The notes beneath the pieces are model-generated. The model saw nothing but the letters and a program-made list of their open reading frames with translations. It searched no databases and was not told where the DNA came from. The translations under genes were made by a program, and so were the position numbers. This document shows positions 4,673-29,052 of a stretch of DNA of 38,628 bases, piece after piece. The stretch comes from Candidatus Polarisedimenticolia bacterium (lineage in GTDB: Bacteria; Acidobacteriota; Polarisedimenticolia; Gp22-AA2; AA152): the NCBI GenBank assembly GCA_035764505.1, contig DASTZC010000019.1, positions 1 to 38,628 on the forward strand, given 5' to 3'. How positions within the stretch are numbered: the stretch's first letter is position 1; every line of letters starts with the position of its first letter.

Positions 4673-5691
4673 CGGTCCGCGTGGGAATCAACGGTTTCGG
4701 GCGAATCGGCAGGCTGTTCCTCAGGGCGGCGAAGAGCGCCGGCAAGATGTTCAACTTCGTGGCGATCAACGACCTGGCCGACACGAAACAGATGGCGCTG
4801 CTGCTGAAGTACGACTCGATTCATGGACCCTATCCGGGGCGCGTGCAGACCGAAGGCACCGATCTGATCGTCGATGAGGACCGCATCCAGACGCGGCAGG
4901 TCACCGACAAGCGCGAAGGCGACCCGTTTCCTTTTCCGTGGGGGGAGGTGGGCGCCGACATCGTGGTCGAGGCCACCGGGATCTTCCGGCGCAAAGGGGA
5001 GCTGGAGCGGCACCTGGGGGCGGGAGCGAAGAAGGTAGTCCTGACGGTGCCGGCCAAGGACCCGCTGGACGCCACCATTGTCATGGGAGTCAACGACAAG
5101 ACCCTCAAGCCGACCGACCGGCTGGTGTCGAACTCGTCGTGCACGACCAATTGCGCTGCGCCGGTGGCCCGCGTGCTGCAGGATCTGTACGGCATCCGTG
5201 AGGGCTTCCTGACCACGGTTCATGCGTATACCAATGACCAGCGGCTGTTCGACTATCCCCACAAGGATCCACGACGCGGGCGCATGGCTCCCGTGAGCAT
5301 CGTGCCCACTTCCACGGGGGCGGCCAAGGCGCTGGGGCTGGTGATTCCGGAGCTGCAGGGAAAGCTCGAGGGGCTCGCCTTCCGCGTCCCGGTCCCGTCC
5401 GGGTCGGTCGTGGACCTCACGGTCATCACCGAGAAGCGCCCCGCAGTGGAGGAGATCCACGCGGCGATGAAGCAGGCCGCCGCGGGGCCGATGCGCGGCA
5501 TCCTGCAATTCACCCAGGATCCGATCGTCTCCGCCGACGTCATCGGCAATCCGCACTCGTCGATCTATGACAGTCTCCTGACGCAGGTGCCGCAGGAGGA
5601 CATGGTCAAGGTGATCGCCTGGTACGACAACGAGTGGGGCTACGCCATGCGCCTCGTCGAGCTCGTCGAGAAGCTCGCCTCCCTGAACTGA
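4669..5691 (+). CDS. gap: Glyceraldehyde-3-phosphate dehydrogenase, type I
   Basis: 340 residues, full length. The N-terminal Rossmann motif VGINGFGRIGRLFLRA binds NAD(P). The acidic residue in AINDLAD favours NAD. The active site is SNSSCTTNCAAPV with nucleophile C158, followed by HAYTNDQ and the sugar-phosphate loop. It converts glyceraldehyde 3-phosphate, NAD and phosphate to 1,3-bisphosphoglycerate in glycolysis and gluconeogenesis. The ATG overlaps the response regulator stop (ATGA), with an agaaggagagg Shine-Dalgarno inside the regulator gene. GAPDH at the end of a stress and two-component operon is unusual. Possible reasons are the oxidant sensitivity of its cysteine or a second, stress-specific paralogue. 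Whether another gap gene exists elsewhere cannot be seen here. Confidence 0.97.
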   Translation: MTVRVGINGFGRIGRLFLRAAKSAGKMFNFVAINDLADTKQMALLLKYDSIHGPYPGRVQTEGTDLIVDEDRIQTRQVTDKREGDPFPFPWGEVGADIVVEATGIFRRKGELERHLGAGAKKVVLTVPAKDPLDATIVMGVNDKTLKPTDRLVSNSSCTTNCAAPVARVLQDLYGIREGFLTTVHAYTNDQRLFDYPHKDPRRGRMAPVSIVPTSTGAAKALGLVIPELQGKLEGLAFRVPVPSGSVVDLTVITEKRPAVEEIHAAMKQAAAGPMRGILQFTQDPIVSADVIGNPHSSIYDSLLTQVPQEDMVKVIAWYDNEWGYAMRLVELVEKLASLN

Positions 5692-25208: not shown

Positions 25209-26144
25209 ATGACCGCTTCGTCCACAGCATGGCCGCCTCTCCCACTCGAGGCCTGGAGCGACACCTACGCCACGTTACACATGTGGACCCAGATCGTCGG
25301 GAAGATCCGCCTCGCGCAAAGTCCCTGGATGAATCATGGCTGGCACTGCACTTTCTACGTGACAGCCAGAGGCCTGACCACATCGCCCGTTCCACACGGG
25401 AGCCGCACGTTCCAGATCGATTTCGATTTCATCGGCCATCAGCTCACGGTCCTGACGAGCGACGGCCTCACCGGCGGTCTTGCGCTCGAATCGCAGTCGG
25501 TCGCGACCTTCTACAAGCGCCTGATGGCGGAGATGGACAACCTCGATATGCACGTGAGAATCAACCAGAAGCCCAACGAGGTTGCCGACCCGATCCATTT
25601 CGATCAGGACGAAACTCACCGAGCGTACGACCGCGAGTACGCCAACCGCTTCTTTCGCATCCTCGTGCAGACGGACCGCGTCTTCAAAGCGTTTCGTGGG
25701 CGGTTCATCGGAAAATGCAGCCCTGTGCACTTTTTCTGGGGCGGTCCCGATCTGGCCGTAACGCGGTTCTCCGGACGTTGGGCCCCGAAGCATCCCGGCG
25801 GAATTCCGAACCTTCCGGACCCGGTGACGCAGGAGGCTTACTCGGAGGAGGTCAGCAGTTGCGGGTTCTGGCCCGGCGGCGGTCCGATTCCCCATGCCGC
25901 GTTCTATTCCTATGCCTATCCCGAGCCGGCCGGGTTTGCGGCATCTCCCGTGCAGCCTCGGGAGGCGTTTTACAGCAAGGATCTTCGGGAGTTCATCCTT
26001 CCATACGACGCCGTCCGGCAGTCGGAAACGCCGGATGACATGCTGCTCGAATTCCTGGAAACGACGTATAGCGCCGCAGCAGATTTGGCGGAATGGGATC
26101 GCAGCTCACTCGAACGCACCCAGGACCCGAAGAGTGTGGTCTAA
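25209..26144 (+). CDS. DUF5996 family protein
   Basis: 311 residues, cytoplasmic by appearance. It begins WPPLPLEAWSDTYATLHMWTQIVGKIRLAQSPWMNHGWH, then GLTTSPVPHGSRTFQIDFDFIGHQL and PVHFFWGGPDLAVTRFSGR. These are landmarks of the DUF5996 family, for which no function is known. Conserved Trp, His and Asp residues hint at a ligand pocket. The start has an aggagagctc site 18 bases after the oxidoreductase stop, so the two are probably co-transcribed. Confidence 0.88.
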   Translation: MTASSTAWPPLPLEAWSDTYATLHMWTQIVGKIRLAQSPWMNHGWHCTFYVTARGLTTSPVPHGSRTFQIDFDFIGHQLTVLTSDGLTGGLALESQSVATFYKRLMAEMDNLDMHVRINQKPNEVADPIHFDQDETHRAYDREYANRFFRILVQTDRVFKAFRGRFIGKCSPVHFFWGGPDLAVTRFSGRWAPKHPGGIPNLPDPVTQEAYSEEVSSCGFWPGGGPIPHAAFYSYAYPEPAGFAASPVQPREAFYSKDLREFILPYDAVRQSETPDDMLLEFLETTYSAAADLAEWDRSSLERTQDPKSVV

Positions 26145-26279: not shown

Positions 26280-27092
26280 ATGAAGGAATCCGAGACGAAG
26301 AAGCGGCGCATTCCGCGCGCTCTCTGGCTCGGCCTCCTGCTGGTGGTGGCTGCGCCCGTTCTTTTCCTGTTGGTCTTCATCGACTTCCCGGTGACGCGCG
26401 ATGTGCCGTGGGCGACACTCCTGATGTTCGCGCTCGGGATCGGGCTGCTGGCGCTATCTGTCAGCAAGGCCTACCGCGACACCGCCATCTATCGCGGCAA
26501 GGTATTCACGGCGATTGCTCTTGCGTTGGGAGTCGGGTTGGGCGGGATCTTCGCCTACGGCACCCTTGTCGGAACGAGAAAGCTGCCGGCATCAGGGGGC
26601 GCGCCGCGCGCGGGTCAGCCGGCGCCCGACTTCACGCTCCTCGACCAGGACGGGCGCTCGGTGACGCTTGCGGAGATGCTCGCAGCAGCTCCGGGCAGTG
26701 CCGGCCGTCCGGGCGGGGTCGTCCTGGTGTTCTTCCGCGGCCACTGGTGACCGTACTGCAACTCCGAGTTGCGGAGCCTGCAAGCCAATCTCGCCGAATT
26801 CGAGGCCCGCGGCGTACGCCTGGTCGCCATCAGCTCGGATCCGCCCGAGGTGATCCGCGAGCTCCGCGCCAAAGCAGGCTACACCTTCACATTCCTCTGC
26901 GATAAAAAGGCGGAAGTGATACGGCGTTACGACCTTCTCGACGCCGGTGCCGGCCCGGACGGCTCGGACATCGCCCGTCCCGCGGAGTTCTATGTCGATC
27001 CGTCAGGCAACGTCCGCTGGCGGCTCCTCACATCATCTTATGCCGCACGTGCCAGGCCCGAGCAGATCCTGAAGGGGATCGACGCGAGCTAG
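26280..27092 (+). CDS. Probable selenoprotein: membrane-anchored peroxiredoxin/thioredoxin-like protein with in-frame TGA (Sec157)
   Basis: Two frames in the same phase are separated only by TGA at 26748-26750. Read through, they give one 270-residue protein. Three hydrophobic helices span about 10-95. An AhpC/TSA-type redoxin domain follows (about 105-265): APDFTLLDQDGRSVTLAEML, VVLVFFRGHW-U-PYC, NLAEFEARGVRLVAISSDPPE, and PAEFYVDPSGNVRW. Relatives carry Cys at this position (FxRGxWCPYC), so the TGA falls exactly on the reactive cysteine and C160 is the second redox residue. A stem-loop follows the TGA (26756-26774), as in bacterial SECIS elements. Inference: selenocysteine insertion. A mutation or sequencing error is the alternative. 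Start: ATG at 26280 with gagggg upstream. Probably a peroxide or thiol oxidoreductase at the inner membrane. Confidence 0.78.
26756..26774 (+). promoter_or_regulatory. Candidate SECIS stem-loop after the in-frame TGA
   Basis: CTGCAACT (26756-26763) pairs with AGTTGCGG (26767-26774), including one G-T wobble, around the loop CCG. The stem begins five bases after the TGA. The loop G lies 16 bases after it, close to the spacing of bacterial SECIS elements that bind SelB. The loop is small and its first two bases are C, so the match is imperfect. Confidence 0.5.
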
Positions 27093-28700: not shown

Positions 28701-29052
28701 GGGGGCGAAACGGATTCGACGGGACTGCAGACGCCGGGGTAGCACGCCGAGGCCCACTAACCTCGTTAAACCGGTGGACAAACACAAACGCTAACAACAA
28801 CTTAGCGCTGGCTGCTTAAGGCAGTCCGTCCTGCGGGTTCCCCTCCCGAGGGAATCCGGTCAGGGCGTGACCAAGTCGGGATAGCTGATCGGAATGCCTG
28901 GCGCTGATCGGCGAAACTTACAGGCTGGCTTCTCACCCGACACTTTCCGGAATCGGCGGGAGAGCGGCGAGACGTTTACGAACCGGATAAGCGTGTAGAG
29001 GCCCTAGGCTGAACTCTTCCGGACGCGGGTTCGACTCCCGCCGCCTCCACCA
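28701..29052 (+). ncRNA. ssrA: Transfer-messenger RNA (tmRNA, 10Sa RNA)
   Basis: The 5' end GGGGGCGAAACGGATTCGAC is the conserved tmRNA start, and the 3' end has a T-arm (GGGTTCGACTCCC) followed by CGCCTCC and an encoded ACCA. GGGGGCG pairs with CGCCTCC (one G-T pair) as the acceptor stem. The tag frame runs from GCT at 28790 to TAA at 28817-28819 and encodes ANNNLALAA. The tag is only nine residues and ends in the ALAA degron. With SmpB, tmRNA rescues stalled ribosomes and marks the nascent protein for ClpXP. Pseudoknot-forming segments follow the tag. It is transcribed alone from its own promoter. Such genes are common integration sites, and the next 4-5 kb contain several broken genes. Confidence 0.97.

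Follow-up and report, generated by a model that had tools for sequence, protein, structure and literature searches.

An in-frame TGA within a redoxin domain

Positions 26280-27092 on the forward strand of the window, by which we mean the whole 38,628-nt stretch of DNA that was analysed, hold a single reading frame that opens with ATG at 26280, contains one in-frame TGA at 26748-26750 and closes with the stop TAG at 27090-27092. Read with the TGA as selenocysteine (Sec), the gene is complete and gives one protein of 270 residues, with three membrane helices and a single AhpC/TSA redoxin domain; Sec would then occupy residue 157 in FFRGHW-U-PYC and form a UxxC motif with Cys160. Orthologues are 30-60% identical to this protein over the alignment. 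The open reading frames divide the same DNA into an upstream (26274/26280-26750) and a downstream one (26769-27092), and standard gene-calling programs would annotate 26280-27092 as two broken genes.

An initial annotation of this DNA had joined the two same-phase frames across the TGA, and rightly so, as ATG, TGA and TAG share one frame. Its remark that the downstream half lacks a start of its own needs qualifying: there is one start, an internal TTG at 26769 within the redoxin domain, and no other. That this half continues the domain agrees with the AhpC-TSA profile (Pfam PF00578; residues 112-247, 26613-27020), which gives 65.6 bits with the sequence 3' of the TGA and 102.5 bits with the joined protein. 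Since the part before the TGA has no match alone and the joined score exceeds that of the downstream part, one domain spans the TGA.

Membrane anchor and fold

The AlphaFold2 model, based on a 19-row alignment, has a pLDDT of 89.6 and contains a thioredoxin-like domain and helices at residues 13-31, 44-66 and 71-100, which, together with hydropathy, we interpret as three transmembrane helices (about 26316-26579, forward strand). Positive charge at the N-terminus and in the second loop suggests an N-in topology that would place the redoxin domain in the periplasm. In Foldseek searches the best matches were Bcp4 and Mycobacterium tuberculosis AhpE, and ResA-type folds matched too. When aligned, C160 falls on the peroxidatic cysteine of AhpE and Bcp, and U157 on the Thr of their TxxC motif. 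It is from the fold matches, this alignment and the charge pattern that we propose a membrane-tethered selenol oxidoreductase. As a known domain for the membrane region, DUF2721 was considered and rejected: its matches are weak and limited to 6 of 19 family members (best 1.8e-4), and the window protein scores 12.7 bits where 28.3 are required.

Conservation of the TGA among relatives

Among the matches listed from 396 genomes of the window's phylum, full or near-full relatives with the three-helix region occur in 19 genomes, the window's included; three of these rows (L122, L127 and L129) were used with a truncation or frameshift at the N-terminus. The codon is TGA in all 19 and Cys in none. 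W156, position 157 and C160 are invariant in their alignment, and the residues between the TGA and the TTG at 26769 are conserved. A profile search of 41 genomes of the class recovered 11 three-helix genes, every one with the TGA; in one match there is a second TGA, which seems to lie where the match extends beyond an end of the gene. Within the sampled genomes we found no three-helix relative with Cys at this position. Cys is present there in more distant relatives (L146, L147, L148, L149 and L043), and across homologues the column holds TGA or Cys, the two possibilities that the initial annotation had wanted compared, and never Trp. One search for related loci was biased towards Cys relatives because it used a Cys pattern.

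At least 87 of the 396 sampled genomes carry a TGA-containing redoxin relative. The three-helix orthologues differ mostly by synonymous substitutions on both sides of the TGA, and downstream of it dN is below dS in every pair compared (for example, 0.062 against 0.67 and 0.28 against 1.25). A tree of 50 redoxin domains places all three-helix genes in a TGA-only branch of 23 rows (support 97/94) and requires three changes of the Sec/Cys label. A separate observation concerns a Betaproteobacteria metagenome-assembled genome, in which a locus near position 5117 (L051) has TGA at the same site (FYRGHWUPYC) and clusters with a relative from the phylum that has Cys, possibly through transfer or a binning error.

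Selenocysteine machinery

The genome to which the window belongs (4.46 Mb in 288 contigs, listed as 100% complete) encodes selB (336 bits), selA (543 bits) and selD (366 bits), each above the curated cut-off, together with a tRNA-Sec (73.8 bits) with anticodon TCA (UCA). Its selD gene itself has an in-frame TGA (SSGGUAAK). The initial annotation had called for a search for these four genes and would have given up its reading if selB and selC were missing; the whole set is there.

Across the sampled genomes selA is associated with the TGA. All 19 three-helix genomes carry selA, against a background of 251 of 396 (p = 1.3e-4), and among the matches listed selA is found in 81 of 87 genomes with a TGA-type redoxin versus 12 of 27 with only Cys-type, stop-free matches (Fisher p = 2e-7), these p-values being optimistic because the genes and genomes compared are related. 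The six TGA-type genomes in which selA was not detected range in completeness from 75 to 97%, with G226, G083 and G314 below 90%.

The window's genome appears to be rich in selenoproteins. The motifs are SADWUPYC and RGTWUPNC in two further TGA-containing redoxins, L016 (G000:C232) and L017 (G000:C276), and a strong hairpin lies 3' of the TGA in both. Two ResA/TlpA-like frames with TWUGSC, L021 (G000:C2) and L023 (G000:C264), are candidate selenoproteins.

The hairpin downstream of the TGA

A probable bSECIS element lies at 26757-26782 on the forward strand, where the RNA 3' of the TGA reads UGCA-CUCCG-AGUUG-CGGAG-UGCA. Its outer stem is UGCA/UGCA and its inner, upper stem of 5 bp is CUCCG/CGGAG (26762-26766 with 26772-26776), enclosing the loop AGUUG (26767-26771), which starts 16 nt past the UGA; the folding energy is -9.9 kcal/mol. 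With -10.9 kcal/mol in the comparison with the bSECIS model of a 2026 review, the hairpin agrees with that model (loop of 3-9 nt, stem of 4-16 bp, G within the first two nucleotides of the loop, spacing of 16-37 nt to the UGA, MFE at most -7.5; PMC13188914). Such agreement discriminates little by itself, because 65% of the 916 TGA triplets on the two strands of the window also pass, and we therefore rejected the consensus as proof. Folding of the individual sequence is also unremarkable: the 45-nt stretch after the TGA has a z-score of -1.13 against shuffles, and the hairpin of the window alone reaches only -1.3 under synonymous randomisation.

It is the comparative data, covariation and the contrast between Sec and Cys genes, that lift the hairpin above chance. 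In an alignment of 12 sequences, of which 11 are three-helix orthologues and the other is the relative L142, four of the seven hairpin pairs are altered on both sides, for example UA to CG and GC or CG to UA, with most of the double changes coming from two sequences, L129 and L142. The counts were reached in 0-1 of 500 shuffles, and slid controls gave far lower ones. Under synonymous-codon randomisation the mean z-score of the hairpin is -2.3 in Sec genes (n = 35) versus -0.2 in Cys genes (n = 16; p = 6e-7), so that Sec-type genes have a stronger hairpin than their protein sequence calls for, and their Cys-type relatives do not. A whole-region MFE test separates the two groups less well (mean z -1.3 versus -0.55, p = 0.005). 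The stem-loop that the initial annotation had placed at SECIS-like spacing is real and has comparative support; its match to the consensus is weak evidence by itself. The loop itself occupies two alternative positions among three-helix genes: at about +24 nt, with GGU, in L128 and L130-L135, and at +16, with AGUU[G/A], in L015 and L121-L127.

Interpretation and alternative readings

Judged from sequence, 26280-27092 is very probably a genuine selenoprotein gene: its product would be a redoxin of the AhpC/TSA fold, anchored in the membrane by three helices, with Sec inserted as residue 157. We infer the insertion from what was observed directly, namely the conserved frame, its conserved TGA, the Sec genes, the domain and the covarying hairpin. 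SelB, the Sec-tRNA and the hairpin just 3' of the UGA would together place selenocysteine at residue 157, the redoxin domain would most likely face the periplasm, and through its U157-x-x-C160 pair the enzyme would probably use a selenol to exchange thiols and disulfides or to reduce peroxides, with reaction, substrate and electron donor all putative. The initial proposal of Sec in a membrane redoxin is therefore supported, having withstood every objection it had raised against itself.

Three readings would do without Sec. A pseudogene or an error of sequencing or assembly, in which a Cys codon has been turned into TGA, could draw on the Cys found at this position in relatives such as L146 and L147. 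However, 18 further genomes, with identities as low as about 30%, have TGA at the same codon, which excludes a sequencing error, such as the TGC or TGT at 26748-26750 considered initially; the conservation of the TGA across families of the phylum already refutes a broken codon, purifying selection continues past the TGA and the Sec machinery is present, leaving this account a negligible probability. The TGA might instead be a true stop that separates a 156-residue membrane protein from a redoxin fragment starting at the in-frame TTG 26769, and at low selenium in particular a Sec UGA is indeed expected to terminate some translation. Starting at the TTG would nevertheless yield a product without the invariant active-site residues U157 and C160, and both the AhpC-TSA domain spanning the TGA and the conserved residues between TGA and TTG speak against it, so we consider a true stop very improbable. 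Near-cognate suppression, with Trp or another residue inserted, would dispense with a SECIS element altogether, but it accounts poorly for a column that holds Cys and never Trp in homologues, for the covarying hairpin and for the association with selA; it strikes us as scarcely credible.

A fourth alternative accepts the selenoprotein and differs in its chemistry: the protein would work as a peroxiredoxin proper, in which C160 is the peroxidatic residue and Sec the resolving one, and not as a thiol/disulfide oxidoreductase. The positions of C160 and U157 on the AhpE/Bcp cysteine and threonine favour it, as does the fact that peroxiredoxins are the best structural matches. On the other side, Sec in place of the peroxiredoxin Thr creates a dithiol-type UxxC motif like that of published Prx-like thiol:disulfide oxidoreductases, and ResA-type folds match as well. 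We hold the peroxiredoxin chemistry to be possible, if rather doubtful. For the selenoprotein as a whole, a broader picture may be ventured, tentatively and with slightly more conviction than the peroxiredoxin chemistry: redoxins with three helices and a domain facing the periplasm would make up a family that uses Sec only, not described before and present in many families of one phylum. Its members might connect electron carriers of the membrane with a selenol in the periplasm, and its SECIS hairpin would have shifted between the loop positions +16 and +24 nt with the architecture unchanged.

Relation to known selenoproteins

The window protein has both the PF00578 domain and the UxxC motif, and its domain falls within the published group of UxxC Prx-like thiol:disulfide oxidoreductase selenoproteins or next to it. 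The review lists as predicted families a 'Prx-like thiol:disulfide oxidoreductase, PF00578, UxxC/UxxU' and a 'Redoxin family protein, PF08534, UxxC' (PMC13188914), and a study of GOS data describes UxxC Prx-like groups (Prx-like 1), some fused to extra domains (PMC2398784). In common with these are the AhpC/TSA domain, UxxC and bacterial Sec insertion; the published family is itself predicted, as is the oxidoreductase activity here. The window protein differs in its added N-terminal three-helix anchor and in the lack of a Cys orthologue of this architecture in our sample, and these two features, with the two alternative hairpin positions, are what is new relative to the published UxxC selenoproteins. 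The passages of PMC13188914 and PMC2398784 that we consulted make no mention of a three-helix anchor, which is no proof of its absence from the literature. That a membrane-anchored UxxC redoxin is uncommon, as initially stated, holds for the anchor, which is unusual, but not for the rest, as UxxC Prx-like selenoproteins are tabulated (PMC13188914, Table 1) and TGA relatives occur in at least 87 of the 396 sampled genomes of the phylum.

Other families are more remote. The peroxiredoxin selenoprotein with TxxU shares fold and Pfam family, whereas the window protein has Sec at the Thr position and Cys at the peroxidatic position. SelL has the motif UxxU, in contrast to the UxxC and membrane anchor found here. 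The SelL-related model NF040769 of NCBIfam describes a Prx-like fold with a Sec/Cys CxxC-type site, like the one at hand, but the window protein scores 41.3 bits against a cut-off of 120, and the weak matches of all 19 three-helix members are a family hint only; the window protein stays below the cut-off of every NCBIfam model. AhpE/Bcp peroxiredoxins and ResA are the closest solved structures, but they are without Sec and the matched chains without the three-helix anchor.

These results add to the UxxC Prx-like selenoproteins a membrane-anchored architecture that is Sec-only in the sampled genomes, and they point to a phylum in which standard annotation would split many genes. Two hairpin positions in one protein family represent a natural experiment on SECIS movement under coding constraint. 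For this GC-rich DNA they also offer a calibration: the bSECIS consensus alone is of little value, and good discrimination comes from covariation and from the contrast between Sec and Cys genes.

Gene surroundings

Comparison of the window with nine orthologous regions showed no conserved gene neighbour, only cross-matches of common regulator families, and a plasmid collection had no place covering 80% of the window protein. Upstream lies a gene for a DUF5996 protein (25209-26144; 471 bits), which was not found beside the redoxin elsewhere, and a tmRNA gene with the tag ANNNLALAA is found at 28701-29052.
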